From assembly GCF_009709575.1 (NCBI RefSeq), contig NZ_WIXO01000001.1, positions 3,164,001 to 3,228,000 of the forward strand: a DNA stretch of 64,000 nt, given 5' to 3'. How positions within the stretch are numbered: the first letter of the stretch is position 1; each line of letters starts with the position of its first letter. Both the position numbers and the translations under genes were made by a program. This document shows, piece after piece, positions 1,551-15,629 of the stretch. This DNA comes from Streptomyces taklimakanensis. Lineage in GTDB: Bacteria > Actinomycetota > Actinomycetes > Streptomycetales > Streptomycetaceae. The notes below the pieces were generated by a model, which saw only the letters and a list, made by a program, of their open reading frames with translations, was not told where the DNA came from and did not search any database.

Positions 1551-1848
1551 CTTCACGCTCCGTACCCGGTGCACCCGGTCAGTCCTGTGCAGTCGATTCT
1601 TCTGTGTGCTCCGGGGGAGCCGCATGTGGTAGGACTTCTCGGGCTTCACGTGTTGAGTGCGCTACTAATCGCCCCACACCAGCCGGACCCCCCGGTTCGG
1701 AGCATGCTACCGAAAGGGGCTTGTCGGGCGTAGGTGATCTCTGTGAAGAGCTGCCAATCAGCTTCACGAGACATGACACATACGCCGCTGAGTCACGGGG
1801 GTGTGCAGCGTGGCGTGGCCAGGAACCCTTCAGGGCAGGAAGTGCGAC

Positions 1849-2418
1849 ATGGGCGATCTGACTGTGGCGTGGTCGACGCAGGTAGCGCAAGCCGAACTCA
1901 GCACTGCGCTTCCACGACGGTGGGCACATACGCGAGGAGTGGCCGAACGCGCGGTCGAAGTAAGCCAGGTACTCGGCAAGGGGGCATCCCTGCTCGTTGC
2001 TGCTGCCACGCTGCACGATGTCGGATACGCGCCACGGCTGACGAAAACGGGCTTCCATCCGCTGGACGGAGCCCGGTTTCTGCGCGATGAGCATGGCGCG
2101 GACGAGCGGCTGGTGCGGTTGGTGGCGAACCACTCGTTCGCGCTGCTGGAGGCCGAGGAGCGCGGGCTGCGGGAGGTACTGGAGGCGGAGTTCCCGTTGC
2201 TGGAGGACCAGTTGTTGGTGGACGCGCTGGTCTACTGCGACATGACGACGACGCCCGACGGGGAGCGAACCACCGCCGAGGAGCGGGTGGCCGAGATCCG
2301 GGGCCGCTACGGGGACGACAGCGTGGTGGGGCGGTTCATCCGCCGGGCGGCGCCGGAGATCTTCGCCGCGGTGGAACGGGTGGAGGAGGCGCTGGCAGCT
2401 CAGTCCAGGCGGGGGTAG
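1849..2418 (+). CDS. HD-domain phosphohydrolase-like protein
   Basis: A 189-residue protein with the metal ligands of the HD superfamily: H27 (RWAHTRGVAER), the doublet H56-D57 (LHDVGY), H95 (NHS) and D131 (VYCDM). HD proteins hydrolyse phosphomono- or phosphodiesters, including nucleotides; the substrate here is unknown. The ATG at 1849 is preceded by GCAGGAAG, and the frame is open from 1801 without a better start. It is divergent from the MORC-like ATPase across about 300 bp and ends 19 bp inside the convergent NUDIX gene. Such stand-alone HD proteins are common accessory genes in Streptomyces. Confidence 0.8.
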   Translation: MGDLTVAWSTQVAQAELSTALPRRWAHTRGVAERAVEVSQVLGKGASLLVAAATLHDVGYAPRLTKTGFHPLDGARFLRDEHGADERLVRLVANHSFALLEAEERGLREVLEAEFPLLEDQLLVDALVYCDMTTTPDGERTTAEERVAEIRGRYGDDSVVGRFIRRAAPEIFAAVERVEEALAAQSRRG

Positions 2419-2867
2419 GTGCCGGCGAGGTAGTCGCCGATCTGCTGGCGCATGCTGGGGTGGATGTCGTACCGGTCGAGGTCGGCCGGGGGAACGAAGC
2501 GGACGCCGTCGGCCTCGTCGTTGACCGTGGGCTCGCCGCCGACGGGGCGGCCGATGTAGGTGGTCTCGTACTGCTGGCGGATCTCGCCGTCGGTGTAGGC
2601 GACGATGTGGTGGGGATTGGTGTAGACGCCGAGGAAGCCGGTGATCTCGGCGACGATGCCGGTCTCCTCCAGGCACTCGCGCACCGCGCACTGTGCGGCC
2701 GTCTCGCCGATGTCCTGGGCGCCGCCGGGCAGGGCCCACTGGCCGGTGTCGCGGCGGCGCTGGAGCAGGATGGCGCCGTCCTCATTGACGACGAGCAGGT
2801 TGCTGGCGGGGATGAGGGTGTTCGCCTTGGGGGCGTCGGCGTCGTGGTAGTACTCAGTCCTGCCCAT
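2400..2867 (-). CDS. NUDIX hydrolase
   Basis: A 155-residue single-domain NUDIX protein. The box runs from G49 to I71 with the canonical spacing: G49, E55, R63-E64, E67-E68, G70. NUDIX enzymes cleave nucleoside diphosphates linked to another moiety, using divalent metal bound by the REXXEE glutamates. The start MGRTEYYHD at 2867 lies 14 bp inside the 3' end of the DUF5919 regulator gene, so the two are probably co-transcribed and translationally coupled. The 3' end overlaps the convergent HD gene by 19 bp. Substrate unknown. Confidence 0.88.
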   Translation of the reverse strand: MGRTEYYHDADAPKANTLIPASNLLVVNEDGAILLQRRRDTGQWALPGGAQDIGETAAQCAVRECLEETGIVAEITGFLGVYTNPHHIVAYTDGEIRQQYETTYIGRPVGGEPTVNDEADGVRFVPPADLDRYDIHPSMRQQIGDYLAGTYPRLD

Positions 2868-3636
2868 GGGCGGCCATCCCCTCCTGGTCGGGCGTCCAGG
2901 GCCGGGCACCGGCCCAGACGGCGTCGAAACTCTGAGCGTAGTTGTCGAACCACCCGGAGGCGTCGACTCTCCTGAGGTGGAGAAGAGGGTTGGCGCTGGC
3001 CGGCTGGCCCCAGATGTGCGGGTTGACCAGCAGGTTGTCGTCGTAGCGGAACATCGACGTGTAGAGCGTGGTGTCGTGCAGCCGCACCTCGCATCCCTCC
3101 TCGGAGAGCAGGGAGCGGTAGTAGGTCAGGGAGGCGCGGATCTTGGCGGCGAGGGTGTCGCCGATGCCTTCCTCCCGGCCCCGGACGGCGACCGCCCGGC
3201 CCGCCGGGTCGCCGAAGCACAGGCGGACCCGTACCCCGTCGGCCGCGCGCTCGGCGAGCATCTTGGCGACGTGCGGGTTGGACTGGGCGAAGAAGGTGCC
3301 GGAGAAGACGAGTACGCCGATCTCCCTCCGGGCCTCCTGCAGCAGTGAGAGCCACATCTCGCGGGGGACGCTGGCGCGGTTGGCGTAGGTGCCGACGAGT
3401 TCGGCGCCTGATCCTGCGGCGGGGCGGCCGGTCCGGGGTTGCGGGGCGGGCCAGAGGAACGTCTCCTCCACCCGCAGGTGCTGCGCGACACGGAAGCGGT
3501 GCCGCGGATGGGGTACGCGCCCACCCAGCCAGCGGCTGACGGTCTTGGGGTCCACCCCGCAGGCTTCGGCAAGCGACTCGGGTGGGACGCCGCGCTGGGC
3601 GAGTACGGAGTGAAGTCGCTCGTTCACAGAACCCAT
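2854..3636 (-). CDS. XRE-type regulator with DUF5919-like domain
   Basis: A 260-residue protein. Residues about 5-55 form an XRE helix-turn-helix (LAEACGVDPKTVSRWLGG). The remainder resembles the DUF5919 domain that accompanies such helix-turn-helix regions in Streptomyces; its conserved stretch is VLVFSGTFFAQSNP near the middle. The effector is unknown. It is divergent from the HAD gene across an 87-bp gap and overlaps the NUDIX gene by 14 bp, so it may control both directions. The ribosome binding site is weak; a GTG nine bases downstream (3627) is an alternative start. Confidence 0.75.
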   Translation of the reverse strand: MGSVNERLHSVLAQRGVPPESLAEACGVDPKTVSRWLGGRVPHPRHRFRVAQHLRVEETFLWPAPQPRTGRPAAGSGAELVGTYANRASVPREMWLSLLQEARREIGVLVFSGTFFAQSNPHVAKMLAERAADGVRVRLCFGDPAGRAVAVRGREEGIGDTLAAKIRASLTYYRSLLSEEGCEVRLHDTTLYTSMFRYDDNLLVNPHIWGQPASANPLLHLRRVDASGWFDNYAQSFDAVWAGARPWTPDQEGMAAHGQD

Positions 3637-3723
3637 GGAAGCCGAGGCGGGCGTGATCGGGCAAGGACGTTATGGGACGTTCCTGCGAAGCTGGTGCCGC
3701 GCCCGGGTGCTTACCCTGGCGGA

Positions 3724-4416
3724 ATGCAGCTCATCGTCCTGTGGGACATCGACCACACGCTCATCGACAACGCAGGGGTGAGCAAGGAGATCTACGCGGC
3801 CGCGTTCTCGGCACTGGCAGGCCGCCCGCCGACCGGACCGGCACGGACCGAGGGCCGCACAGACCGCATGATCATGCGGGAGATGTTCCTGCGCGAGGGC
3901 CTGCCCGAGCCGGACTGGACCGCCGTCGAGGCCGCCCTCACCCTCGCCGGCCAGGAGCGGCTTGAGGAGCTGCGCAGGCGTGGGACGGCTCTGCCGGGCG
4001 TACGGGACGCGCTCAAGGCCGTCTCGGTACAGGACGGTTGGGTGTCATCGATCCTGACCGGGAACATCGCGGCCAACGCCCGGGTGAAGCTGTCGGCTTT
4101 CGACCTCGACCCTCTGCTCGACCTGTCGGTCGGAGCCTACGGTGCCGACGCGCTCCAGCGCCCCGACCTCGTGGCCGTCGCCCGGGAGCGCGCCCGCCTT
4201 CTTCGCGATGTGCGCCCTGACGTGCCCGTGGTGCTGGTGGGTGACACGCCACGGGACGTGGAGTCCGCGCTCACCACGGGTTCCGGGATCGTCGCGGTCG
4301 CCTCGGGCATCCACAGCGCCGAGGAGCTGGCCGCCGCCGGCGCGTCCGTCGTACTGCCCGACCTGTCGGACACCGCGGACCTCCTGAGGATCCTGGAGTC
4401 CTTCGCGGCGCGCTGA
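3724..4416 (+). CDS. HAD-superfamily hydrolase (phosphatase-like)
   Basis: A 230-residue HAD protein. Motif I is DIDHT with nucleophile D8 and acid/base D10, motif II is SILTGN, and the motif III/IV region contains VGDTPRDVE. A helical cap lies between motifs I and II, as in the beta-phosphoglucomutase/phosphoglycolate phosphatase class. It probably dephosphorylates a small molecule. ATG 3724 follows TGGCGGA; the longer upstream frame is spurious because it runs through the divergent promoter. It sits about 107 bp before the radical SAM gene in the same direction and could be the first gene of that operon. Confidence 0.85.
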   Translation: MQLIVLWDIDHTLIDNAGVSKEIYAAAFSALAGRPPTGPARTEGRTDRMIMREMFLREGLPEPDWTAVEAALTLAGQERLEELRRRGTALPGVRDALKAVSVQDGWVSSILTGNIAANARVKLSAFDLDPLLDLSVGAYGADALQRPDLVAVARERARLLRDVRPDVPVVLVGDTPRDVESALTTGSGIVAVASGIHSAEELAAAGASVVLPDLSDTADLLRILESFAAR

Positions 4417-4523
4417 AAACGTCCCGAGACGTCCTCGGAGCGTCCGGATACGCGGTGACGCGGTCCCCGTACGCTCCGCCACCATCGGGTCTCCCACCAG
4501 GCGACTGGCCGGAGGAGGCCCAC

Positions 4524-5426
4524 GTGATCGCGGAAGTCACCGGTATCCGCAGGATCCGGATGCTGTACCTGCAGCTGCTGTACCGCTGCAACTTCGAGTG
4601 CCTGCACTGCTTCCACGGCACCCGGCTCCAGCACGCCGACGCCTTCACCGCCGAGCAGGCCGCCAACCTCCTCACTCTCATGCGGGACCGGTACGGCACC
4701 GAGGCCGTCACCTTCCTCGGCGGTGAGCCGTTCGTCTACAAGGACCTCGCCCGGGTGGTCCGGCACGCCCGGCGGGAGCTGGGCCTGCGGGTCGAGATCT
4801 GCACCAACGGCTACCGGATCGAGCGCCGGCTGGCCGAGATCGCCCCGCACCTGGACCTGCTGCGGGTCTCGTTGGAGGGTGTCGGCTCGACCAACGACCA
4901 CATCCGCAGGTCCGGGAGCTACCAGAGCGCGCTGAACGCGCTCGGCCTCGCCCGGGAACTCGGCGTCCCCACGGGCGCGACCATGACGGTCACCTCCCGC
5001 AACATCGACGAGGTACTGCCGCTGGCCCGCGTCCTGGAACACTTCGAGGTACGGCAGTTGAAGCTGCACTGTCTGCGTCCGGTCGGCAACGCCGCCGCCC
5101 ACCCGGAGCTCCTGGTCACCGAACCCGCCGCGTACGCCCGCCTGCGCGAGCGGCTCCGGGAGGCCCAGCCGGCCATCGAGGTGGTCGTCGACGAGGACCT
5201 GTCCGAGCACGGTGCCCCGGAGGTCTGCGCACCCGCCGGCGGCCCGGCCGAGATCGAGCGGATCGAGGCCGACCCGCGCGGTGCGCTCACCATGTCCTGC
5301 AAGGCCGTCGGCAGGGACGCGCACGCCTTCTGGTACGACAAGCGCGCCAACCGCATCGTCCACCGGCCCACCGCCACCGACGAACTGGCCCTCGCGGTGC
5401 CGGACGTGGTGTGCGGCCGTGTCTGA
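4524..5426 (+). CDS. Radical SAM enzyme
   Basis: A 300-residue protein with the radical SAM CX3CX2C cluster motif at C22, C26 and C29 (RCNFECLHC) and the SAM-binding GGEP about 50 residues later. Four later cysteines (LHCLRP, EVCAPAGG, MSCKAVG, DVVCGRV) suggest a short twitch- or SPASM-like extension, typical of enzymes that modify peptides or alcohols. GTG 4524 is chosen for its excellent GGAGGAGG (4511-4518); a further upstream ATG has no such site. Its stop overlaps the next start by 8 bp. Radical SAM identity is certain; the substrate is unknown, though a nearby small peptide gene makes peptide modification plausible. Confidence 0.88.
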   Translation: MIAEVTGIRRIRMLYLQLLYRCNFECLHCFHGTRLQHADAFTAEQAANLLTLMRDRYGTEAVTFLGGEPFVYKDLARVVRHARRELGLRVEICTNGYRIERRLAEIAPHLDLLRVSLEGVGSTNDHIRRSGSYQSALNALGLARELGVPTGATMTVTSRNIDEVLPLARVLEHFEVRQLKLHCLRPVGNAAAHPELLVTEPAAYARLRERLREAQPAIEVVVDEDLSEHGAPEVCAPAGGPAEIERIEADPRGALTMSCKAVGRDAHAFWYDKRANRIVHRPTATDELALAVPDVVCGRV

Positions 5427-6060
5427 CCGCCCGCTGTTCGAGAGCCTCGAAGGACTCCGCGGCACCGGCAAGTCGACCATCGCGCCGATGCTGGCGGCGG
5501 CTCGCGGCGCGGTGCTGGTCCCGACCGTACCGCCCGCCTACCAGCGCCTGCGGCGCGACGTGGACGCGCGGGGGAACGTCGAGGCACGGATGTGCTTCCA
5601 CCTCTCCGCGCTGTTCGCCGCGGCCGACGAGATACGGCGCCATCTCGCCCTCGGCATCCCGGTCGTCGTGGAGAGCTACTTCGCCCGCTGCCTGGCCACC
5701 CACCACGCTTTCGGCACCCGCCTCGGGATCACGCTGCCGCCCGACCTGCCGCAGCCCGTCACCTACCACCTGGCCTGCGACGAGGACGAGCGCCGGTGGC
5801 GCCTGGCCGGGCGGGACAAGCCGGTGACCCACTGGGACGCCCTCGCCGAGGCCACCGTCGACCGGCTCACCGCCGCCTACGCCCGGTTCCCGATGCACCG
5901 CGTGGACACCACCGGCCTCGACCCCGACGAGGTCCTCCGGGCGATCCTCACCATCGACACGCAAGGAGCCCACCACCGTGCGGACACAGAGCCTGTGGGA
6001 GCACACCCTCACCTTCTTCCCCCAGTTCCTCGCCGCGCTGAGGGAGCACACCGCCGCTGA
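5419..6060 (+). CDS. P-loop nucleotide kinase-like protein (dTMP-kinase fold)
   Basis: A 213-residue protein with Walker A GLRGTGKST at residues 12-20. The layout resembles thymidylate-kinase-type enzymes (N-terminal FESLEGLRGTGKST, then VVVESYFAR), although the substrate-binding residues of true Tmk are not evident. The GTG start overlaps the radical SAM stop by 8 bp. The frame stays open 83 bp into the methyltransferase gene, an unusually long same-strand overlap. The last 30 residues are rich in His, Arg and Pro and may be functionally neutral. It could phosphorylate a pathway intermediate or act as a regulatory ATPase. Confidence 0.72.
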   Translation: MSDRPLFESLEGLRGTGKSTIAPMLAAARGAVLVPTVPPAYQRLRRDVDARGNVEARMCFHLSALFAAADEIRRHLALGIPVVVESYFARCLATHHAFGTRLGITLPPDLPQPVTYHLACDEDERRWRLAGRDKPVTHWDALAEATVDRLTAAYARFPMHRVDTTGLDPDEVLRAILTIDTQGAHHRADTEPVGAHPHLLPPVPRRAEGAHRR

Positions 6061-6655
6061 TGCCACCGTCGCGGTCGTCGGCGCGAGCGACGGCAAGTTC
6101 GTCCTGCCGCTGGCAGCCGCCGGTTACCGCGTCATCGCCATCGAACGCGACCCGCTGGCCCTGCACGGCGGCGAGGTCCGCCTTCCGGGTGAGGAGCACA
6201 CCCACGCGATGGGCCTGATCGACCGGCTCAAACTTGAAGAGCTCCACGACCGCGTGCAGGTCGTCGAGGGCGACTTCCTCCAGAACGAACCGCCGGGTAC
6301 GCCCTGCGACGCGGTCTGGACGAGCTGTTCCTGGCATTACAGTGCCAACCACCACCGCCCGCTCGCCGAGTTCGTCCACCACATGCAGCGCCTGGTCGGT
6401 CCGGGCGGCCTCATCGGCGCGGAGTTCATGATGCCCGTCGAGCACCGCCACCACCTGGTCGAGCACTACACGTCCTCGGAAAGGCTCCGGCGCCACTTCA
6501 TCGGCGACTGGAACGTGCTGCTCACGCTGCGCACGAACGAGTTCACCGAACGGGCCCACGTCGGCCGGCTCCAGGACCACACCCATCGCATGGGTCTGAT
6601 CCTCGCGGCCCGTACGCCCGGCCCCTCCCACCGTTACGGGAAGAAGGACTCATGA
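5978..6655 (+). CDS. Class I SAM-dependent methyltransferase
   Basis: A 225-residue Rossmann-type methyltransferase. Motif I is VAVVGASDGKFVLPLA near residues 31-46, followed by an acidic loop ending in AIERDPLA; the motif IV region is DAVWTSCSWHYS. GTG 5978 follows AAGGAG (5964-5969) and lies inside the 3' end of the kinase-like gene. The stop overlaps the CYTH start as ATGA (6652-6655), implying coupled translation. The acceptor is unknown; the context suggests modification of the cluster's own product. Confidence 0.82.
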   Translation: MRTQSLWEHTLTFFPQFLAALREHTAADATVAVVGASDGKFVLPLAAAGYRVIAIERDPLALHGGEVRLPGEEHTHAMGLIDRLKLEELHDRVQVVEGDFLQNEPPGTPCDAVWTSCSWHYSANHHRPLAEFVHHMQRLVGPGGLIGAEFMMPVEHRHHLVEHYTSSERLRRHFIGDWNVLLTLRTNEFTERAHVGRLQDHTHRMGLILAARTPGPSHRYGKKDS

Positions 6656-7239
6656 AGCACGAGTACGAAGCGAAGTTCCTCGCCGTCGACGTCACCGACC
6701 TGCAGACCAGGCTGACCCGGCTCGGTGCCGTCCAGGTGCTCCCGCGCACCCTCCTCACCCGCAAGATCTTCGAGAACGACGCCCTCGACGTCGGCGCCTG
6801 GATCCGCCTGCGGAACGAGGGCACCCGGTCCACGCTCACGCTCAAGCAGGTCACCGACGCCACCACCATCGACGGCACCACCGAGGTCGAGACCGAGGTG
6901 GCCGACCTGCACGCCATGGCCGAGATCCTTCGCCGCATCGGGCTGCGCGAGGTCCGCTACCAGGAGAACTACCGGGAGGAGTGGCGCCTGGGCGAGGTCG
7001 TCTTCGACTTCGACACCTGGCCGGATCTCCCCACCTTCGTCGAGATCGAGGGCCCGGACGAGGCATCGGTCCGCCAGGCCGCCGCCCTCCTCGAACTCGA
7101 CTACTCCGAGGCCCGGTTCGGCAGCGTCGACGAGATCTACAAGAGCGAGGCGGGCCGCGACATCCTCTCCGAGCCCACCCTCCTCTTCGCCGACTCCGAG
7201 AAGGACGAGTCCCGCCCCGTGCCCACCCAGGGCACCTGA
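6652..7239 (+). CDS. CYTH-domain protein (class IV adenylate cyclase-like)
   Basis: A 195-residue triphosphate tunnel metalloenzyme fold. It starts MKHEYEAKF, carrying the ExExK signature at E4, E6 and K8. Alternating basic and acidic strands follow (WIRLRNEG, TLTLKQV, EVETEV, FVEIEGPD). The family includes class IV adenylate cyclases, thiamine triphosphatases and inorganic triphosphatases, so it acts on a triphosphate-bearing ligand. The start is coupled by ATGA to the methyltransferase. The acidic C-terminal tail beyond about residue 175 is extra. The role in the pathway is unknown. Confidence 0.85.
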   Translation: MKHEYEAKFLAVDVTDLQTRLTRLGAVQVLPRTLLTRKIFENDALDVGAWIRLRNEGTRSTLTLKQVTDATTIDGTTEVETEVADLHAMAEILRRIGLREVRYQENYREEWRLGEVVFDFDTWPDLPTFVEIEGPDEASVRQAAALLELDYSEARFGSVDEIYKSEAGRDILSEPTLLFADSEKDESRPVPTQGT

Positions 7240-7256
7240 CCCCCGGGGGGAGCACC

Positions 7257-7628
7257 GTGCTTCCGGAACCGGCCGGGCCACACAGGGCGGCACCGGGCAT
7301 CCCCGACTTCGCCCGGGGCGGGCTTCCCGCCCCGGCGGCCACCGACGACGGAAACCGGTGGGTCGACGGCTCCTGCTGGCTCTACTGCGGCCGGCGGTGG
7401 ACCCGCGTCCTGTGGGTCGGTCCCGTGAACGTGGCCGGTGTCCAGGCACCGATGTACGCCTGCGGCCCCTGCATCCGGAAGCTACAGGAGCAGGTATGGC
7501 AAGCCGTCCTCCTCAACGACGCACCGACGCGCTCCGCACAACCCGGCGCTCCCGCCGGAGCCGAACCGCCCGGCAGGCGGCGTGGAGGAAGGCACCGAGC
7601 ACGAGGCGGCTTCCCGCGTCGCGGCTGA
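7257..7628 (+). CDS. Small cysteine-pair protein, function unknown
   Basis: A 123-residue open frame starting at GTG 7257, seven bases after GGGGGGAG and 18 bp after the CYTH stop. The middle carries two cysteine pairs, SCWLYC (CX3C) and ACGPC (CX2C), about 30 residues apart, flanked by tryptophans: a likely zinc or Fe-S knuckle. The C-terminal 35 residues are Arg/Gly/Pro-rich and may not be under protein selection. Overlapping short frames in this stretch (for example one ending at 7767) have poorer starts. No family is recognised. Its position in the operon suggests an accessory or carrier role. Confidence 0.55.
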   Translation: MLPEPAGPHRAAPGIPDFARGGLPAPAATDDGNRWVDGSCWLYCGRRWTRVLWVGPVNVAGVQAPMYACGPCIRKLQEQVWQAVLLNDAPTRSAQPGAPAGAEPPGRRRGGRHRARGGFPRRG

Positions 7629-7782
7629 ACACCGCCCGGGCCGGCGAACCGCCCCCTCCTACCCCGTCCCCGTGGACGACTCCCCTACGGCCACGGAGAC
7701 GGCCCCGGCAACACCAGCACCTCCGCACACCACAGCTTCCCGCCGAACCCGGCGGGAGAACCGGTAGAGGAAGGAGCACCAA

Positions 7783-7944
7783 GTGGGAGACACCACCCCC
7801 TCCGTGGAGGAGGGTCTTCTGGTCGCCGTGGAAGTCCTCGCGAGCGTCCACGACCGGCACGACAGCAGCGCCTCCGACCCGGGGCAGGGCAGCTCCGGTG
7901 ACGGCCCCTGGCCCGGTGGCGACGGCCTGAACCACGCGGCGTAA
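7783..7944 (+). CDS. 53-residue peptide, candidate RiPP precursor
   Basis: A short gene with GTG 7783 and a strong GGAAGGAG (7769-7776). The product starts MGDTTPSVEEGLLVAVEV and ends GPWPGGDGLNHAA. Its N-terminal half is acidic and helix-prone (leader-like). Its C-terminal half is rich in Gly, Ser and Asp, with DRHDSSASD and a single tryptophan, and contains no cysteine. It lies among modifying-enzyme genes and is followed within 14 bp by a strong hairpin, an arrangement typical of precursor peptides. A perfect 7-bp-stem hairpin (7738-7757) lies just upstream. No homologue is recognised, so the precursor role is inferred from context only. Confidence 0.55.
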   Translation: MGDTTPSVEEGLLVAVEVLASVHDRHDSSASDPGQGSSGDGPWPGGDGLNHAA

Positions 7945-7957
7945 CCGCCGGCTCTCC

Positions 7958-7989
7958 GGTGGAGGGGCCGCGCACGCGGCCCCTCCACC
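7958..7989 (+). terminator. Hairpin between peptide gene and oxygenase gene (attenuator-like)
   Basis: A perfect 14-bp stem (GGTGGAGGGGCCGC at 7958-7971 pairing with 7976-7989) closes a four-base loop GCAC. It starts 14 bp after the peptide stop and 38 bp before the oxygenase start. No U-run follows, as is usual in Streptomyces. It probably limits read-through so that the peptide is made in excess over the downstream enzymes. Confidence 0.75.
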
Positions 7990-8026
7990 TTCCACCTCCC
8001 ATCTGACGCAAGGAAGGGAACAGCCC

Positions 8027-9232
8027 ATGGAGCACCGTCTGGTCCGCGCCGTCGAAGAGGCACTGGGGTGGGACGGCCCGGCCCCGCTCGGAAAGGACTT
8101 CGCCCGGGGAAGCATCGGCGACCCCCAGCTCGTCACCCGACTGCTCACGCCCGCGCGCCTGCTCGACATGGTCATGCGCCGGAGCCTGGCCAACCCCCAG
8201 TTCCGCTTCTTCAAGGGCGGCGAGGAGCTGCACCCCGACGCGTACCTGGACCGGCAGGTCACACCCCGGGGCCAGGCGATACCGATGGCCGGCATGCGCC
8301 GCGTGGGCAGCCTGCTGCGCGAGGGCGCGACGCTGGTCCTGGACCAGTCGAACGTCTTCGACCCCACGATGGAAGTGACGTGCCGAGCCCTGCAGTGGTG
8401 GTCCCGGGAGCACGTCCAGGCGAACGTGTACCTGACCACCAACGACGCCTCCGGCTTCGACCTGCACTGGGACGACCACGACGTCCTCATCGTCCAGCTC
8501 GCCGGAGAGAAGCAGTGGGAGGTACGCGGCACATCACGGCCCGTGCCCATGTTCCGGGACGCCGAGCGGAACAACACCCCCAGCGAGGAGATCGTGTGGA
8601 CCGGCACCATGAAGGCCGGCGACGTCATGCACATCCCCCGCGGCTACTGGCACGCCGCCACCCGGGCGGGCCGGGGCGGCGGCCACAGCACCCACGTGAC
8701 CTTCGGGTTCGCCAAGCGCACCGCCGTGAGCTGGCTGACCTGGCTCGCCGACTGGTCCCGCCAGGAGGAGGTGTTCCGCCATGACCTCGACCGCTGGGGC
8801 AGCCCGGAGGAGCAGCAGGTCCAGGAACGGCGGCTGACCGACGCGGCCTCCCGGCTCCTCGACGCACGCGGCCCGGCGGAGTTCCTCCGGCTCCGCGAGC
8901 GCGAGGCTCCCTCCGGTCGGCACGTTCCCTTCCTGGAGATCTTCGGGCCGCTTGAGGCCGTGGTGTGTGTCAGCGAGTTCCCGCCGCTGATCCAGGAGGA
9001 GCAGGAGACAGTCACCGTGGTGGCCGCAGGCAAGAAACTCACCTTCGCCTCCAAGGCCCTGCCCGGACTCCGCCTGCTCCTGAGCGGCCACCCGGTGCAG
9101 CTGGACGAGGCCGCCCAGGTCGTGGGCGCCGAGGTGGGAGCCCTGGCGAAGATCCTGGTGGAGGAGGAACTGTGCGCGAGCCTGACCCCCGAGTTGTCCT
9201 CGGGCTACACCGATCTCGTCATGAGCGCCTGA
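8027..9232 (+). CDS. JmjC/cupin_4-type 2-oxoglutarate oxygenase
   Basis: A 401-residue protein with a cupin core. Candidate Fe(II) ligands are H147 and D149 (LHWDDHDV) and H209 (RGYWHA), and VQLAGEKQWEV follows the first pair, as in cupin_4/ribosomal-oxygenase proteins (YcfD, MINA53, NO66). The C-terminal third (LDEAAQVVGAEVGALAKI) resembles the winged-helix tail of that family. Such enzymes hydroxylate Arg or His side chains in proteins using O2 and 2-oxoglutarate. ATG 8027 follows AAGGAAGGG. The gene follows the small peptide gene and overlaps the reductase by 61 bp, so a peptide substrate is attractive but unproven. Confidence 0.82.
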   Translation: MEHRLVRAVEEALGWDGPAPLGKDFARGSIGDPQLVTRLLTPARLLDMVMRRSLANPQFRFFKGGEELHPDAYLDRQVTPRGQAIPMAGMRRVGSLLREGATLVLDQSNVFDPTMEVTCRALQWWSREHVQANVYLTTNDASGFDLHWDDHDVLIVQLAGEKQWEVRGTSRPVPMFRDAERNNTPSEEIVWTGTMKAGDVMHIPRGYWHAATRAGRGGGHSTHVTFGFAKRTAVSWLTWLADWSRQEEVFRHDLDRWGSPEEQQVQERRLTDAASRLLDARGPAEFLRLREREAPSGRHVPFLEIFGPLEAVVCVSEFPPLIQEEQETVTVVAAGKKLTFASKALPGLRLLLSGHPVQLDEAAQVVGAEVGALAKILVEEELCASLTPELSSGYTDLVMSA

Positions 9233-10032
9233 TCCTCACCAGCGCGCTGGAACTCGGTGTCGAGGCGATCGACACCAGTTTCAACTACCACGGCTTCTCG
9301 GCCCACACCGCCCTGGCGGAGGTGGGGGGCGACCTCCTGCCCCGCTTCACGGTCTCCACCAAGGTCGGATTCTTCCCGGCCGCCGACGGGGTCGAGCACT
9401 CACTCGACCCCGGCAGGCTCCGGGCAGCGGTGGAACAGACCAACCGTGATCTCGGACGCGTCCCCGACCTGGTGTTCCTGCACAATCCGGAACGCTCCCT
9501 GCCCGAACGCTCCTCCGTTGGTCAGGAAGCGCTGGGTACGGCGTGCGCTGCCCTGGAGAGAGCCGCGGCGAACGGGCTGTGCGGGGCCTGGGGCGTCTCC
9601 TCATGGGACCCCCTCCCACTGCCCGGCCTCGTGGACGACACCATGCCCAGGCCCGACGTGCTCATGATTCGGGCGGGGCTCCTGGTTCCGATCGACGTCC
9701 TGGAGGCGTCGGAGGCCCTGGCAGCCCGATGGGACCTCGACGCCGAACGGCTCTGGGGCATGAGCCCCTTCGGCGGCGGGGCCGGAAATCCGCTGTGGGA
9801 GACGTTCGACCCACGGGTCTTCATCCAGAACCCTGACGACGACCTTTCCGCCGTACAGGCCGCGTTCCGCATCGCCTGCCGGCTGCCGCAGGTGGGGAAG
9901 GTCGCCGTCGGCACGGACGACCCGTCCCACCTGGCGGAGCTGGTCGCCGCCCTGCGGTACGAGGCGGATGTCGGCAGCCTGCGCACGTACCGGCGGCTTC
10001 TCCGCGAGCGGGCGGGCCGTCAGCCGGTCTGA
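9172..10032 (+). CDS. Aldo/keto reductase family protein
   Basis: A 286-residue AKR-type barrel. The catalytic tetrad is visible: D34 and Y39 (AIDTSFNYHG), K64 (STKVGF) and H104 (VFLHNPER). A later GMSPFGGG may contact cofactor phosphate. GTG 9172 is preceded by GGAGGAGG inside the oxygenase gene, giving a 61-bp overlap; later in-frame starts would remove the conserved first strand. The predicted reaction is NAD(P)H-dependent carbonyl reduction. The N-terminus is shorter than in typical 310-340 residue AKRs. The stop overlaps the convergent APH-fold gene by 13 bp. Confidence 0.8.
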   Translation: MREPDPRVVLGLHRSRHERLILTSALELGVEAIDTSFNYHGFSAHTALAEVGGDLLPRFTVSTKVGFFPAADGVEHSLDPGRLRAAVEQTNRDLGRVPDLVFLHNPERSLPERSSVGQEALGTACAALERAAANGLCGAWGVSSWDPLPLPGLVDDTMPRPDVLMIRAGLLVPIDVLEASEALAARWDLDAERLWGMSPFGGGAGNPLWETFDPRVFIQNPDDDLSAVQAAFRIACRLPQVGKVAVGTDDPSHLAELVAALRYEADVGSLRTYRRLLRERAGRQPV

Positions 10033-10877
10033 AGTTCCTCCGCGATCCGTGCCGTTGTCCGGCGTGCCGGCTCCAGGCGGGGGTCCTCGGGGTGGGCGTC
10101 CGGGGCCAGGACCTTCGCGCAGACGAACAGGGTCATCAGCTTGCCGTCCCGGCTCTCCAGGTCGCGACGCCGCTCCTGGCGGACGCGTTCGGCCAGGGCC
10201 GGGACGGCGAGGGAGTTGCCCCACAGCGATGCGGCATCCAGCCCTCGGGGTGCCATGCCCCAGTCCTCCCAGTCGAACAGGCAGAACTTGGGGCCGGTCA
10301 TGTTCGCCCAGTTCAGGTCCGCGTGCGCGGGCCGCCACTGGCTCACCGTCGTATCCATGCCATCGGGCAGGAAGCGGCGGGCCGCCTCGGTGACACCGCC
10401 CTGGGTGATCGTGACGGTGTCCGGGGTGGCGACGCGGCTCGTGCGGTGGGCGGCCAGCGCGTCCAGCGAGGCGTTCAACGCCTGCCACCACGCATCCGGC
10501 AGTCCGGGATCGGTGGCCAGGACGCTGGTGCCGATCGGCGCTCCGGGCAGCAGATCGGTCTCATCCGCCCGCCACATCGCGGCACCGTCCGGCTGACGCC
10601 ACACCACCGCCCGGTGCCACCGGGGCTGCGCGACTCCTTCCAGGACGGCCGCGCACTCGGTGCCGTTCCAGCCCTGGCTCCCGATCTTCTCCATCCGGCG
10701 CCGCTCGATGCGCACCCATGTGCCCCGGTCCGTCCGCGCACCCAGCGAGCGCCGCTTGCGCACCAGCGTGTCCCGGTCCAGCCGGGTCTGGAGGGACCGC
10801 TCGACATCGTCGAGCACAGCGTCGACCGGCTCGATTCTCAGGTCGGCCGGTGCGGCGGCAGGCGCGGAAGATGGCAT
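10020..10877 (-). CDS. Aminoglycoside phosphotransferase (APH)-fold kinase
   Basis: A 285-residue protein with the APH/choline-kinase catalytic loop HADLNWAN (H185, D187, N192) and the metal-binding DWE (D202-E204). The N-lobe has WVRIERRRMEK but no classic P-loop. ATG 10877 has AAGGAGG immediately upstream; an in-frame start at 10910 is less likely. Family members phosphorylate antibiotics, sugars or other small hydroxyl compounds. It is convergent with the reductase (13-bp overlap), so it could provide self-protection for the adjacent cluster or be independent cargo. Confidence 0.78.
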   Translation of the reverse strand: MPSSAPAAAPADLRIEPVDAVLDDVERSLQTRLDRDTLVRKRRSLGARTDRGTWVRIERRRMEKIGSQGWNGTECAAVLEGVAQPRWHRAVVWRQPDGAAMWRADETDLLPGAPIGTSVLATDPGLPDAWWQALNASLDALAAHRTSRVATPDTVTITQGGVTEAARRFLPDGMDTTVSQWRPAHADLNWANMTGPKFCLFDWEDWGMAPRGLDAASLWGNSLAVPALAERVRQERRRDLESRDGKLMTLFVCAKVLAPDAHPEDPRLEPARRTTARIAEELQTG

Positions 10878-10970: not shown

Positions 10971-12638
10971 TCAGCGGTGCCGCGTCCGGGACGGCTGCGG
11001 GTCTGGAGCGGCGGGGTGCTGCGCGGTGGTGCGTGCTCTGGCTGCCTGGGCTTGTGGGCTGGGGGCGTGGCGTTGGCCGAGGCGGTGGATGCGCCAGGTC
11101 AGGGTGCGGGCAGGGTGGCGGGCGTCGTTCAGGGTGCGCTGGCCCAGGGCCTGGTCGAGGAGGGTGACGGCGTTGTGGCCTGTGGTCTCGGCGTCGGCGA
11201 GCACGGCGGCGAGGGCGTCCCAGGCGGGGTCTTTCAGGATGCGCTCGGCGTGCTCGGGGGCCGCCCGTTGGAGATGGAGGGTGAGGCGTTGCTTGGTCTG
11301 GAGGCTGGGGGTGCGGTGGGCGAAGTGGTCCAGGACCGGCCCGGCGATTCGTGTGTAGGCGGTCTGGAGGTGGAGAAGGGTCTGCTCGGCAGCTGCTTCC
11401 TGCTGAGCGTGCCGGTGGGCGCGGTGCCAGTGCCTGGCGTAGGCCACGGCGAGGAGCGCGGCGTCCAGCAGCATGGCCAGCCCGGCGCCGTCCGCCGGGG
11501 CGGGGTCGCGCACGATCGCCTGAACGCTGCGGCGCAGGACACGCGCGCTGTCGAGGTCCGCGGTGATGCGGGAGCGGGTGGCGCGTTCGAAGGCGACGGC
11601 GGCCTGCCCCAGCTCGTTCCGCAGGCCGGCCGGTGCGGCAACCGGCAGGAGGTCCAAGGCTCCGCCGAGGGCGACCAGCTGCCCCTGCGCCACCCTGTCG
11701 TCGCTGCCGGTGAGGTGTACAGGGATGCGCTCGGTGGCCGCGGTGGCCTGGTGCCAGGGATCGGCCGGGCGGGCGGGTGCCGGCCGGCGGGTGGGGGCGC
11801 CGAGGCGTTGGCGGATCTTGGGCAGGGAGAGGTCGTCGGCCAGGGTGGAGCCGGAGTACCACACGGGCTCGCCTTGGCCGTTGGTGTCGCCGGGCAGGGC
11901 GACGCTGTAGCCCAGCAGGTCGCCGGACGGCCCGGCCTTCGGGCGCACCTCCACACCGGAGGCGGCCAGCAGCGCGAAGAACCCGGCCTCGTCGTCGGCG
12001 GCGGCCACCGCGCGGCGGACCCGCAGGCGCAGGATCTCCCGCGCGGTGGCGTCCCGGCCCTGCCGTTTGGCCTTGAAGTGCTCCTTGCTGGTGGGTCGCT
12101 TGGCCGCGGTGCCGTCGCCGAGCTTCAAGCGCCGAAGCCCGTAGTCGGCCTCGATCCTCCGTGCCTCCTTCTGGACGGCGCGATAGTCGTGGCCCCGGTC
12201 GGGGCGGCGGCCGTCCTGGCGGACGAGGGTGGCGGCGATGTGGATGTGGTCCTCGGCATGCCGTACCGCCACCCAGCGGCACGCCTGGCCGTCCCCGTCG
12301 GAGGCGAGACCGGCGGCGGCCACCATCCGGCGGGCGATGTCCGCCCACTGGGCGTCGGTGAGGACCGGGTCCTCCGGTGCGGCACGGACCGGGCAGTGCC
12401 AGATGGTGTTCTTCGGCGCCCGGTCGCCCAGCAGGGTCACCGGCTGGTCGAGCTGGGCCGCGAGCTGCCTTTCCACTGTCTTCGGGTCGCGGTGCGGGAT
12501 GCGACCGGGGTCGGGGGCGAAGCCGTTCCAGGAGGCCACCAGGTGCGGATCGGTGTGCTCGTTGGCCCGGCCCGTGCCGAACAGGTAGGCGACCAGACGG
12601 CGGGTGCTGCCTCTGCCGAGGATGATCTTCGGTATCAC
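10971..12638 (-). CDS. Relaxase/mobilization nuclease (MobA/VirD2-like)
   Basis: A 555-residue protein. The N-terminus IPKIILGRGSTRRLVAYLF is typical of actinobacterial relaxases. The three-histidine metal motif is RHAEDHIHIAAT (H127, H131, H133), which positions the nicking reaction at oriT. The C-terminal half is Ala/Arg-rich and helical. The nicking tyrosine is not obvious; the N-terminal Y18 is a candidate. It lies 4 bp downstream of mobC, so the two form a relaxosome operon. High-GC long frames on the opposite strand here are shadows. Confidence 0.85.
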   Translation of the reverse strand: MIPKIILGRGSTRRLVAYLFGTGRANEHTDPHLVASWNGFAPDPGRIPHRDPKTVERQLAAQLDQPVTLLGDRAPKNTIWHCPVRAAPEDPVLTDAQWADIARRMVAAAGLASDGDGQACRWVAVRHAEDHIHIAATLVRQDGRRPDRGHDYRAVQKEARRIEADYGLRRLKLGDGTAAKRPTSKEHFKAKRQGRDATAREILRLRVRRAVAAADDEAGFFALLAASGVEVRPKAGPSGDLLGYSVALPGDTNGQGEPVWYSGSTLADDLSLPKIRQRLGAPTRRPAPARPADPWHQATAATERIPVHLTGSDDRVAQGQLVALGGALDLLPVAAPAGLRNELGQAAVAFERATRSRITADLDSARVLRRSVQAIVRDPAPADGAGLAMLLDAALLAVAYARHWHRAHRHAQQEAAAEQTLLHLQTAYTRIAGPVLDHFAHRTPSLQTKQRLTLHLQRAAPEHAERILKDPAWDALAAVLADAETTGHNAVTLLDQALGQRTLNDARHPARTLTWRIHRLGQRHAPSPQAQAARARTTAQHPAAPDPQPSRTRHR

Positions 12639-12642
12639 CGGC

Positions 12643-13248
12643 TCACCGCCCCGCCGTCACCTGGGCGATGGCGGTGTCCAGCTCGGCGATCGACGCCTCG
12701 ACGCGGTCCAGGAGGCGGCGGACCGCCTCCCGCTCGGGCAGGGCGCCGTCCTGGTTGAGGTGCCGGGCGAGCTGGTTGAGGTTGCTGCCGACCTTGCCCA
12801 GCTGCCCGTTGGCGGCCATCAGCACTCTGACCGCGGCGCGGTAGTCGGCGACCGCCGCCGCGGGGTCGTCGGCGCGGGCGGCGGCCAGCGACGCCTCGGC
12901 GACGTAGCCGCCCACCTGCATACCACTGGCCCCGGCCGCCTTTGCAAGGTCGGCGAACTCGCCGTCGCTGTAGCGAGGATGCACGCGGCGCTTACGCAGT
13001 CGGCGCTCGCGCAGACGACGACGCGGCGTGGGCGGCTGCGGCGCGCTCGGCGACGGCTCGGCGGCTCCTCCCACGGTCGGCTCCCCCGGGCCGGCCGACC
13101 CCGGCGCCCCCGCAGCGCCGGATGCCTCCGCCACCCCTGGGGCGGAGACCGGGTAAGGACTCCTAACCCGACAACTTGCTGCCCCGATGACGGCCGTGGG
13201 TGCCTCCTGCTGCGATCTTTGGGCGCGGTTGGCGTGTGGGTGGTGCAT
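12643..13248 (-). CDS. MobC-like relaxosome accessory protein
   Basis: A 201-residue protein. The C-terminal 110 residues match MobC: basic RRLRERRLRKRRVHPRYSD, then a helical region with NGQLGKVGSNLNQLARHLN near residues 150-168. MobC binds oriT DNA and helps the relaxase open it. The N-terminal 80 residues are low-complexity Pro/Ala/Gly. ATG 13248 has GGAG 9 bases upstream; GTG 13134 is a possible shorter start and would leave the inverted repeat at 13151-13169 intergenic. Confidence 0.78.
   Translation of the reverse strand: MHHPHANRAQRSQQEAPTAVIGAASCRVRSPYPVSAPGVAEASGAAGAPGSAGPGEPTVGGAAEPSPSAPQPPTPRRRLRERRLRKRRVHPRYSDGEFADLAKAAGASGMQVGGYVAEASLAAARADDPAAAVADYRAAVRVLMAANGQLGKVGSNLNQLARHLNQDGALPEREAVRRLLDRVEASIAELDTAIAQVTAGR
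13151..13169. repeat. Inverted repeat, candidate oriT element
   Basis: GGGTAAGGACTCCTAACCC is a nearly perfect 19-bp palindrome just inside or upstream of mobC, followed by ACAACTTGCTGCCCC. An inverted repeat beside a nick site next to mobC is the usual oriT plan in mobilizable elements. The nick position cannot be assigned from sequence. Confidence 0.4.
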
Positions 13249-13944
13249 GCGCGGTGTCTCCGTGGTGGCTGTGGGTGGCGGGCGCCGGACGAAGGCGATC
13301 AGAGGTTCAGGGCGTGGCGGGCTCGTGATGCCGTTGCCGTCCTGCTCGCGGACGGTCCTTGTCCGGCGTATTCACTGAGAGCCGTGCAGCGGCTTGGTGG
13401 GACCGCGTCTGGGTCCCGTCTTCGCTGGCTTTGTCCTGTGGTCCTCGGTCCCCGGGGCGGTTCGCGGTTTTCGGTCCCCGGGATGGTCCCGGTCCCGGCT
13501 CGGTCCCCGCCGCCTGTGTCTGCGGGCGGGGACGGTCCCGAACGCGGTCTGCTGTCGGTTTGCGGGGACCGTCCCGTGGTCGGCAGGCAGGCGGTGGTCC
13601 CGGGGAACGGAGTTGCGCAGAGGGGCCATGGGCGGCGGACCTGCGGTGATGCTGGTCCGTGGTCCCGGTGGGTGTGCGCGGTCCCCGATCTTCGGGGCGG
13701 TCCCCAGTCCCACAGTCCCCGAGGGGGCTGCGGTCCCCGACATGGCTTGGTCCCCAGTCCCCGGTTCCCAGCGCGGTCCGCGTTCCGGTCCCCGGCTACT
13801 GGTCTCTGAGGGGACCGGGGACCGCGGGGACCGTGGTCCCGGGTGGTCCGGTCCCCGGCTCTGTTCGGCGGGGACCGCGAGGGTCTGGTCGTCTTCTTCA
13901 GCAGCGGGCCGGTCCGCCGCCGTTCCGTTCGGGTGTGGGGTTGT
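13249..13944. repeat. Gene-free tract with dense GGTCCC/GGGACC iteron-like repeats
   Basis: About 700 bp without a convincing gene. Between 13399 and 13876 I count 22 exact copies of GGTCCC or its complement GGGACC, many extended to CGGTCCCCGG. Starts include 13399, 13412, 13447, 13473, 13485, 13491, 13502, 13534, 13565, 13596, 13661, 13680, 13699, 13732, 13749, 13787, 13811, 13818, 13827, 13835, 13850 and 13871. Both orientations occur and spacing is irregular. The tract lies between mobilization and replication genes, where an origin or oriT control region would be expected. A 123-codon open frame on the minus strand (13372-13743) is a by-product of the repeats. Confidence 0.7.
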
Positions 13945-14700
13945 TCAGCGGGTGCGTCCTGGGACCGGAGTCGGCGGAGGGGCGGCCACAGCGGTCGGCA
14001 CCGGGGCGTGCGCGGGTGTCCGGCGTCGATCGGAGCCGGTGAGGATGACGCGGTCGGTCATCTCGGCGAGGCGGGAGGCGACGCGGTCGCCGAGCGCGGT
14101 GCGCAGCTCGGTGGTGGGGAGGTTGGTGGTGATCAGGGTGGGGCGCAGGTGCTCGTACCGGTGGTTGATCAGCCGGTAGGTGAGTTCCTCGGTCCAGTCG
14201 CTGGCCTTGGCGGCGCCGAGGTCGTCCAGGAGCAGCAGTGGGCAGCGGGCCAGGGCATGCAGGTCGCGTTCGCCGTCGTGGCCGGAGCGGGGGCGCAGGC
14301 GGGCGTAGAGGTCGGCGGCGGTGATGGCCTCCCAGCGCAGGCGGACCCCGGCGGTCAGGAGAGTGCGGATGGCGCCGTACGCCTGGTGGGTCTTGCCGGT
14401 GCCGGTGGGTCCGGCGATCAGCAGGGACGGGCCCTCGGCGATGCCCGGGGCGCCGCCCGGCCCGGGGCGGCCGGTGCGGGTGATGGTGTCGGCCCAGGCG
14501 GTGATCCGCGGGTGGTCGGCCAGGGCGCGGCGGTAGCGGGCGGGTATGCGGGCGTCGGCCAGCTCCAACGCGGTGACCGGCTCGTCGGCCGGTTCTTCCA
14601 GGGGAGCGGCGGGGTCGATGCCGCGGGCGGTGAGGATCGCGTTGAGCCGGTCGGCCAGCGGGCCGACGCGCTGTGGCGCGCGGGTGTGGGTGGTGGTCAC
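13945..14700 (-). CDS. DnaC/IstB-like AAA+ ATPase (helicase loader)
   Basis: A 251-residue AAA+ protein. Walker A is AGPTGTGKTHQ, Walker B is LLLLDDLGA, sensor I is TLITTNLP, and an arginine-finger region follows at DRVASRLAEM. This is the DnaC/IstB-type ATPase that loads replicative helicase or assists transposition; beside a replication-initiator-like gene it is most likely a helicase loader. GTG 14700 overlaps the upstream stop as GTGA (14700-14697), so an earlier in-frame ATG at 14745 is not needed. Confidence 0.82.
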   Translation of the reverse strand: MTTTHTRAPQRVGPLADRLNAILTARGIDPAAPLEEPADEPVTALELADARIPARYRRALADHPRITAWADTITRTGRPGPGGAPGIAEGPSLLIAGPTGTGKTHQAYGAIRTLLTAGVRLRWEAITAADLYARLRPRSGHDGERDLHALARCPLLLLDDLGAAKASDWTEELTYRLINHRYEHLRPTLITTNLPTTELRTALGDRVASRLAEMTDRVILTGSDRRRTPAHAPVPTAVAAPPPTPVPGRTR

Positions 14701-15629
14701 AGCTCGCCCCCGTAGGCTGCCTCGACGTCGGCCGGGTTCATCCACGGGCGGTGGGCGGCGGGTGCGGTCCGGGCGGCGTTCATCGCCTCGTGGACGAGGC
14801 TGGGCAGGGTGCTGGGGTGCAGGCCCTTGGCGCGGTGGCGTTCCAGCCCGGACCGGATGTGGGCGGGATCGATGCCCTCGGCCAGCAGCTTGCCGACCTC
14901 CCGGCCGAGGTGTCCCAGGACGTCCTTCGGGGGGCGGTGGGCGCAGGCGGTGACGTACTCGCCGATGAGCTGCCGGGCCGAGACGGTGTCGGGTGCGGGG
15001 GCGCTCGCGCCCCCCGACGGAGTAGTTCCTAGATCCATGATCCTAGGTCCTAGATCCGGACGGTGAGGTGTCACTGCCGCTGCCGGGAGGTCTCCGTGCT
15101 TCTTCACGGAGGGTTTCGTGAAACCGTCCTCACCTGCGGTTTCGTCAGCAGGTTCGGGATTCGGTGAGGGCTCGCGCGTCTCACGGGAGTCTTCATGGAG
15201 GGTTCCGTGAGGCGTTGGTGCGGGCTCCGTGACACCGGTCCGTGCGGCAGGCGCGGTGGTGCTCCCCGCGGTGCCGGACGGAGCGTCGTGGTGCGGGCAG
15301 CCGGGGAGGCGGCTCTTGCTGGGCCGGTTGATCTTCTGGTGCTGGTGCCAGGTGACGATGTGCAGGTAGCGCTTGTCGTCCGGGCTCTTGTAGCGGCAGA
15401 TCAGGCCGGCGTCCGCGAGCTGGGCGAGGTCCTTCTCGACCTCGGCGGGCGTGTGCTCCGGGCGTAGGACCCACAGCTGTCCGGCGATGATCGCGGCGTG
15501 GTCGCGGTGGCGGCCCTGGTCGTCGGCCTGGGTGAGCAGGCCGAAGAAGGTCCGCTCGGCGGTCAGGGGGACGGCGGCCAGGGACTCGGAGACGAATGCT
15601 TCGGGCTTGATGGTGCGGATGCGTGCCAA
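14697..15629 (-). CDS. Replication initiator/replisome-organiser-like protein
   Basis: A 310-residue protein starting at TTG 15629 (ARIRTIKPEAF), the typical opening of actinophage and ICE winged-helix replication proteins. Residues 1-100 form a winged helix (AERTFFGLLTQADDQGR, LAQLADAGLICRYKS, YLHIVTWHQHQKINRP). A Pro/Thr/Glu-rich linker with internal DNA repeats at 15028-15057 follows. The C-terminal helical domain is DnaD-like (LGREVGKLLAEGIDP). It is coupled to the loader gene by a GTGA overlap. I infer initiation of element replication. Confidence 0.7.
   Translation of the reverse strand: MARIRTIKPEAFVSESLAAVPLTAERTFFGLLTQADDQGRHRDHAAIIAGQLWVLRPEHTPAEVEKDLAQLADAGLICRYKSPDDKRYLHIVTWHQHQKINRPSKSRLPGCPHHDAPSGTAGSTTAPAARTGVTEPAPTPHGTLHEDSRETREPSPNPEPADETAGEDGFTKPSVKKHGDLPAAAVTPHRPDLGPRIMDLGTTPSGGASAPAPDTVSARQLIGEYVTACAHRPPKDVLGHLGREVGKLLAEGIDPAHIRSGLERHRAKGLHPSTLPSLVHEAMNAARTAPAAHRPWMNPADVEAAYGGEL
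15028..15057. repeat. TCCTAGRTCC repeats inside the replication gene
   Basis: TCCTAGATCC occurs at 15028-15037 and 15048-15057, with TCCTAGGTCC between them at 15041-15050. They form a low-GC island in a very GC-rich gene. Lambda-type replication genes carry their origin iterons inside the initiator coding sequence, so these are origin candidates. Confidence 0.55.

Follow-up and report, generated by a model that had tools for sequence, protein, structure and literature searches.

A probable RiPP cassette of peptide, JmjC, aldo/keto reductase and APH-fold genes adjoins an independent radical SAM block in Streptomyces taklimakanensis

We analysed a 64,000-nucleotide stretch of the Streptomyces taklimakanensis genome (the window), in which eight open reading frames, all on the + strand, lie between positions 4524 and 10032 (Table 1). 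Their presence and the overlaps described in the initial annotation were confirmed exactly: 8 bp between the radical SAM (rSAM) and kinase genes (5419-5426), 83 bp between kinase and methyltransferase (5978-6060), 4 bp between methyltransferase and CYTH (6652-6655), and 61 bp between JmjC and aldo/keto reductase (AKR) (9172-9232). The enzyme labels assigned there are also backed by Pfam, with weaker matches for the P-loop kinase and the methyltransferase. The proposal that the eight genes constitute one cluster did not hold; neighbourhood and deletion data, given below, show that they are two neighbouring units. Unit A has the order HD-NUDIX-XRE-HAD-rSAM-kinase-methyltransferase-CYTH-small Cys protein, and unit B (7783-10877) comprises the peptide, JmjC and AKR genes together with a convergent APH-fold gene. 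The three genes named earlier as possible further members divide accordingly, the HAD and NUDIX genes going with the rSAM block and the APH gene with the peptide block.

Table 1. Genes and domains of units A and B (window positions)
Feature	Position	Strand	Evidence
HD-domain protein	1801..2418	+	unit A neighbourhood
NUDIX hydrolase	2400..2867	-	unit A neighbourhood
XRE-type regulator (DUF5919)	2854..3636	-	unit A neighbourhood
HAD hydrolase	3724..4416	+	Pfam; unit A neighbourhood
Radical SAM protein, single CxxxCxxC	4524..5426	+	Pfam Radical_SAM 1.2e-23; 20/247 genomes
P-loop kinase-like protein	5419..6060	+	Pfam AAA_18 3.7e-4
SAM methyltransferase	5978..6655	+	Pfam Methyltransf_25 8.6e-5
CYTH / triphosphate-tunnel protein	6652..7239	+	Pfam CYTH 2.4e-10
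Small two-cysteine-pair protein, 123 aa, junction of units A/B	7257..7628	+	homologues
Putative precursor peptide, 53 aa	7783..7944	+	homologue in 80/80 loci; pN/pS; invariant residues
JmjC (cupin_4, ROX-like) 2-oxoglutarate dioxygenase, C-terminal RRE-like domain	8027..9232	+	Pfam JmjC_2 1.2e-21
RRE-like domain of JmjC, ~residues 311-385	8957-9181	+	RRE fold matches
Aldo/keto reductase (AKR)	9172..10032	+	Pfam Aldo_ket_red 1.1e-12; 79/80 loci
APH/kinase-fold protein, convergent with AKR	10020..10877	-	Pfam APH 1.5e-4, just under gathering; 79/80 loci

The reading frame at 7783-7944 is a genuine gene, as had been supposed, and its linkage to the JmjC and AKR genes is consistent. A homologue precedes the JmjC gene in 80 of 80 related loci (median gap 85 bp), so that a short putative precursor is kept beside a modifying enzyme throughout, as in RiPP clusters. 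Within subgroups the peptide is under purifying selection (pN/pS = 0.15-0.29); the value of 0.53 obtained when subgroups are mixed is due to misaligned tails. The product is hydrophilic and acidic and reads MGDTTPSVEEGLLVAVEVLASVHDRHDSSASD followed by PGQGSSGDGPWPGGDGLNHAA, the junction between the two parts being the presumed leader/core boundary. Its N-terminal motif, LLxAVExLxxVxDRxD...SD, is probably helical, and its C-terminal part is the core GSSGDxPWPGGDGLN. Across 81 sequences residues L12, L19, R25, D32, G39, D40, and D47 are invariant, the last three falling in the core, which is very conserved in contrast to the cores of most antimicrobial RiPPs. The 53-residue peptide belongs to no Pfam family, and when all precursor types described here were compared with known peptide families, none had an NCBIfam match or a Pfam match of any significance.

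The peptide and its enzyme also share their fate. The peptide has 33 matches in 247 Streptomyces genomes. A closely related JmjC gene (type I) adjoins 31 of them; the other two, one in G135 and one a second copy in G169, are degenerate and have no type I JmjC beside them. Where the JmjC gene is broken the peptide is absent or degenerate; two of these genomes carry JmjC fragments alone and no peptide. Unit B occurs in ~12% of the sampled Streptomyces, is also plasmid-borne, and spans at least eight actinobacterial genera, including Streptomyces, Kitasatospora, Actinomadura, Nocardiopsis, Amycolatopsis, Frankia, Streptacidiphilus, and Embleya.

The JmjC model (pLDDT 83.8) has NO66, MINA53, and YcfD as its top PDB fold matches, and its iron site HxD...H (H147, D149, H209) is conserved. 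The C-terminal domain (pLDDT 85.7) is predicted to adopt an RRE-like bbb-aaa arrangement and matches ThcOx, the leader-bound structures of PbtF-RRE and TbiB1, McbB, and PqqD, as well as a lasso-peptide B1 protein and the homologous ROX domain; these RRE matches are weak (E 0.02-0.6), and ROX winged-helix domains, which do not bind RiPP leaders, have the same fold. A JmjC fold with the HxD...H site and a C-terminal winged helix is the combination found in ROX-type enzymes. The enzyme could thus be a ribosomal oxygenase of the NO66/YcfD kind, with the ribosome or some other protein as its substrate and the peptide as an accessory or regulatory partner, given that its nearest solved folds are such oxygenases, whose winged helix is homologous to its C-terminal domain. 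We consider this unlikely. Unlike NO66, MINA53, and YcfD, with which it shares fold, iron site, and winged-helix-like domain, the unit B enzyme is not a housekeeping protein: it is sporadic, found in a minority of Streptomyces and on plasmids, and linked to a short peptide, an AKR, and an APH-fold protein, the latter two of which a ribosomal role leaves unexplained. Different JmjC groups are, moreover, accompanied by peptides with unrelated cores. The genetic linkage points to the peptide, and not a ribosomal protein, as the substrate.

Homologues of the JmjC protein at ~32% identity adjoin other short peptides. A second (type II) group retains both AKR and APH, and its peptide leader aligns with that of the window peptide with modest probability (hhalign E 5.6e-5, probability 66%) whereas the cores differ, a pattern of conserved leader and divergent core that is expected of RiPPs. 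A type III peptide group (MDPIEVEVEDL...SSSDFI) adjoins an S9-like oligopeptidase; its match to the leader of the window peptide is weak (probability 22%), and therefore we claim no homology for this precursor. A further, distant relative comes with a pair of M16-peptidase-like genes, a 51-aa peptide, and an MFS gene. For the type I cassette itself we found no conserved leader protease or exporter; neither is obligatory for RiPPs, and their absence is therefore no bar to membership.

In the AKR, residues D34, Y39, K64, and H104 are all conserved and are read as the AKR tetrad. The APH-fold protein conserves the motifs HADLxxxN and DWEDWG. A sequence search returned no useful solved relatives for either protein. 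Like the JmjC protein, both also lack any PADLOC match, which weighs against another reading of the cassette, that of a small toxin-antitoxin or self-defence unit in which the peptide acts as a toxin and the enzymes modify or neutralise it. The shortness of the peptide, the kinase-fold partner, and the association with plasmids and mobile elements would suit such a unit; the hydrophilic, acidic character of the peptide would not, and three enzymes with intact active sites exceed what an antitoxin needs. We regard this reading as very unlikely.

Unit A is an independent neighbour of unit B. The closest solved relatives of its rSAM protein are cytosylglucuronate decarboxylase and viperin, and that of its CYTH protein is the Saci_0718 TTM. 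Assignment of the rSAM protein as a SPASM peptide maturase was rejected, as it reached no NCBIfam equivalog cut-off (best 82 bits versus 350) and is missing from most peptide cassettes; assignment as a viperin (pVip) failed likewise (63.6 bits against the curated cut-off of 180), and its PADLOC match to pVip (8.7e-25) looks like general rSAM similarity. We also set aside a defence system, since PADLOC gave just a match of the kinase to the candidate family PDC-M51B (2e-19) and weak matches for the rSAM, methyltransferase, and XRE proteins. The small Cys protein, which has no Pfam family, has a homologue (58-71% identical) closing most rSAM-block loci and a paralogue (28-45% identity) 5' of the peptide in about half of the peptide loci. 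The window region around unit A carries mobile-element genes; an attachment repeat of a mobile element was looked for and not found.

Distribution separates the two units. Unit A is a Streptomyces block, largely intact at every one of the 20 rSAM loci retrieved from 19 further genomes, and neither the peptide nor JmjC was found near these loci. Conversely, of the 80 unit B loci 75 lack the rSAM gene, and five carry it together with the kinase and methyltransferase genes. The rSAM gene is present in 20 and the peptide in 32 of the 247 Streptomyces genomes; they occur together in two, versus 2.6 expected, and are adjacent in one. Six close relatives lack part or all of the rSAM-to-CYTH segment and keep the peptide cassette intact. 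Because co-occurrence is at expectation and these deletions spare the cassette, the CYTH protein and kinase, initially proposed as unusual RiPP partners, are unsupported in that role and belong to a separate conserved block. Homologues of the whole eight-gene set are thus almost never found together, which is not so for peptide, JmjC, and AKR. Some observations do favour a single RiPP cluster that includes HAD, NUDIX, and APH and in which rSAM, methyltransferase, kinase, and CYTH also modify the peptide. The genes are packed in one direction both in the window and in L085, L086, L087, and L095, four close relatives; L094 has a divergent CYTH-MT-rSAM-kinase set ~6.5 kb away from the cassette; and in L121 and L125 a CYTH gene immediately follows APH. 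The last three cases exceed a rough chance estimate (~0.04 expected among 80 loci). Relaxase and mobilisation genes lie near both kinds of locus and offer a simpler reason for the repeated neighbourhood, and with the distribution data they make the single cluster extremely improbable.

Unit B is thus probably a RiPP cassette; the RiPP reading proposed at the outset is the best one for the peptide block, and its basis is gene content, linkage, coding status, catalytic residues, and the predicted fold and domain. The 53-residue product would be the precursor, whose leader motif the JmjC enzyme would recognise with its C-terminal RRE-like domain. With Fe(II), O2, and 2-oxoglutarate, this enzyme would then oxidise the C-terminal core, most likely at the invariant D40 and/or D47. 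The AKR, translated from the overlapping reading frame, may next reduce or interconvert a carbonyl introduced into the core; the APH-fold protein may phosphorylate the product or serve self-protection. Removal of the leader is presumed, as is the order of the steps.

APH-like kinases phosphorylate Ser/Thr in the clusters of thioamitides and class V lanthipeptides; unit B shares an APH-fold protein with these and has no lyase, cyclase, or YcaO. A RiPP formed by alpha-ketoglutarate-dependent macrocyclisation, with a 2-oxoglutarate enzyme as its main enzyme, has reportedly been found by Xia et al. in 2025. Unit B resembles it in the type of main enzyme, but its cores contain no conserved Cys; as a citing paper describes the product as a Cys-Tyr crosslink (PMC12636437), we set this system aside as a match. 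In the biphenomycin-type RiPPs (bip/bpm/pbs), the JmjC hydroxylases BipG/BpmG and the cupin-like PbsQ hydroxylate Orn of the precursor (PMC12707348, PMC12257519), which establishes that JmjC hydroxylases can act on RiPP precursors. There, however, the JmjC enzyme is a late tailoring enzyme beside MNIO, B12-rSAM, and arginase on a motif such as FHAFRF, whereas in unit B it is central and partnered by AKR and APH. Membership of that family was rejected, as MNIO, B12-rSAM, and arginase are not among the conserved partners and the core lacks any such aromatic motif. Structure-based RRE mining has flagged fusions of JmjC (PF08007) to an RRE, with bacterial homologues in RiPP-like contexts (PMC12710340). 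These share with unit B a JmjC domain fused to an RRE-like fold; the passages of that article that were consulted describe for them neither a family of precursors nor partner genes nor a leader motif, all of which unit B supplies for one actinobacterial group. A literature search by gene combination and core motif returned no description of a peptide-JmjC-AKR-APH family and no described class that fits, and the cassette is apparently undescribed.

Because the core hardly varies, a conserved physiological function seems likelier than use as a weapon. A bolder proposal, which we put forward tentatively and consider doubtful, is that unit B represents a new RiPP class defined by a ROX-like JmjC enzyme with a built-in RRE, in which a core Asp, once oxidised, would pass to the AKR for reworking and to the APH-fold protein for phosphorylation, giving a highly conserved non-antibiotic small molecule (a signal, cofactor, or metal ligand) common to actinobacteria and carried on mobile DNA. 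The plasmid records that we examined name the genes cupin protein, aldo/keto reductase, and hypothetical protein, and either call the peptide hypothetical or do not annotate it; with such generic or missing annotation the family can escape name-based mining. If the RiPP reading is true, the family would be widespread, in the sampled Streptomyces and in many other actinobacteria; it would give partner genes and precursors to JmjC-RRE fusions that structure mining has flagged, and the peptide and JmjC enzyme would offer a simple two-gene reaction open to testing.

Re-examination of the sequence between window positions 4524 and 10032 bore out the eight open reading frames of the initial annotation, their strand, and their four overlaps; its domain labels were upheld, those of the kinase and the methyltransferase by weak scores. 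The proposal that these genes form a single unit failed, as the radical SAM (rSAM) block (unit A) and the peptide cassette (unit B) recur separately. We searched 247 Streptomyces genomes with the JmjC, the rSAM, and a peptide profile and then inspected the flanking genes. The 20 rSAM loci, in 19 genomes besides that of the window, share the order HD, NUDIX(−), XRE(−), HAD, rSAM, kinase, methyltransferase, CYTH, usually ending with a small Cys protein, with a few genes absent or disrupted at single loci; neither the peptide nor JmjC was found close to any of them. JmjC loci repeat the order peptide, JmjC, AKR, convergent APH. Both units occur in 2 of 247 genomes versus 2.6 expected (20 × 32/247) and are adjacent only in the window's genome (6.1 Mb). 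In a second, independent sample of 80 peptide loci from named genomes, JmjC accompanied the peptide in all 80 and AKR and APH each in 79, compared with 5 for rSAM, kinase, and methyltransferase and 8 for CYTH. Among named loci, the window's nearest relatives are those of S. verrucosisporus CPB1-1 and S. sp. CNQ085, which places the host in Streptomyces.

Window coordinates of the two units and associated features
Feature	Position	Strand
Unit A, conserved Streptomyces block HD-NUDIX-XRE/DUF5919-HAD-rSAM-kinase-methyltransferase-CYTH-Cys protein	1801-7628	
53-residue peptide	7783-7944	
JmjC	8027-9232	
AKR	9172-10032	
APH	10020-10877	−
Relaxase (PF03432), NikA/MobC-like mobilisation protein, IstB-like ATPase	10971-15629	
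Integrase/LacI-type HTH ORF, TTG start	16898-18412	
Missing in L088	4643-7428	
Missing in L092	4572-6636	
Left breakpoints, L088-L091 and L096	4636-4643	

Natural deletions separate the units further. Locus L088, with flanks ~95% identical to the window, lacks most of the rSAM block. A near-identical segment is gone from L089, L090, L091, and L096, and a shorter one that spares CYTH from L092. All six retain peptide, JmjC, AKR, and APH, indicating that the cassette can do without the rSAM block. The left breakpoints of all but L092 nearly coincide, leaving the first ~40 rSAM codons. Because the Cys-protein gene ends unit A and a paralogue precedes the peptide in about half of unit B loci, the two genes could have recombined and so brought the units together.

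The relaxase, mobilisation, and IstB-like genes immediately downstream of the cassette make up a mobile element. Since relaxase homologues lie near both rSAM-block and cassette loci, and the cassette is also found on plasmids, we favour a shared landing region, rather than a shared function, as the explanation for the recurring neighbourhood. The units may nevertheless cooperate loosely: L094 carries a divergent CYTH-methyltransferase-rSAM-kinase set ~6.5 kb from the cassette, and L121 and L125 a CYTH gene behind APH, exceeding a rough chance estimate of 0.04 (80 loci × 20% of genomes × 18 kb/8 Mb). Further along the window, one ORF matches phage integrase domains and, at residues 302-344, a LacI-type HTH (8e-16); a fusion, an insertion, or an artefact of the reading frame could explain the combination.

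The closest solved proteins to the unit A rSAM are cytosylglucuronate decarboxylase and viperin, and to its CYTH a triphosphate-tunnel enzyme; the kinase is closest to a candidate defence family (PADLOC PDC-M51B, 2e-19). With the NUDIX, HAD, and HD partners, these relatives make nucleotide-like chemistry a fair guess only.

In unit B, the peptide lies a median of 85 bp from JmjC (80 loci) and is under purifying selection, with pN/pS of 0.19 in the main group (47 unique sequences) and 0.15-0.29 in others. Across 81 sequences, L12, L19, R25, D32, G39, D40, and D47 are invariant and V16, V22, D24, D27, and S31 nearly so. Loss or fragmentation of JmjC (G135, the second copy in G169, G064, G158) goes with a degenerate or undetected peptide. 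Conserved residues include H147, D149, and H209 of JmjC, D34, Y39, K64, and H104 of AKR, and the HADLxxxN and DWEDWG motifs of APH. The predicted JmjC model (pLDDT 83.8) matches NO66, MINA53, and YcfD. Modelled alone (pLDDT 85.7), its C-terminal domain matches the leader-bound RiPP recognition elements (RREs) of PbtF and TbiB1, as well as ThcOx, McbB, PqqD, and the corresponding ribosomal oxygenase (ROX) domain. Although the E-values are weak, which a domain of about 75 residues would lead one to expect, RRE and ROX domains fill almost all the top ranks.

The directly established layer of the mechanism we propose consists of the genes and how they are linked, evidence of selection, active-site residues, and fold predictions. 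The RRE-like domain would bind the peptide leader. Asn, Asp, and His are targets of ROX/FIH-type hydroxylases; on that ground, and because D40 and D47 are the invariant side chains, JmjC would oxidise a core Asp. Judging from their folds, AKR may act on a carbonyl and APH may phosphorylate. JmjC hydroxylation of RiPP precursors has precedent in biphenomycin (PMC12707348, PMC12257519), and JmjC-RRE fusions in RiPP-like contexts also have a precedent (PMC12710340).

Streptomyces JmjC homologues of ~32% identity (type II) occupy similar peptide-JmjC-AKR-APH cassettes, one on S. glaucescens plasmid pSglau1, whose peptides have a leader alignable with that of the window's peptide and cores such as GGSTGRSDGND. 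At L186, a type II cassette sits inside a decayed cassette of the window's type (peptide and AKR broken, APH intact). Another JmjC group has a 35-37-residue peptide partner and an upstream oligopeptidase-like gene, assigned by eye; in one actinobacterial family (L165-L176), the adjoining peptide is nearly invariant and ends in SSDFI, and the upstream gene is prolyl-oligopeptidase-like. Divergent JmjC relatives lie beside two M16-peptidase-like genes, an MFS gene, and a 51-residue peptide (L191, 227-7191) or a ~50-residue peptide and an MFS gene (L062), likely a separate RiPP family. A single JmjC enzyme family with several short-peptide partners is what one expects to see for RiPP enzymes.
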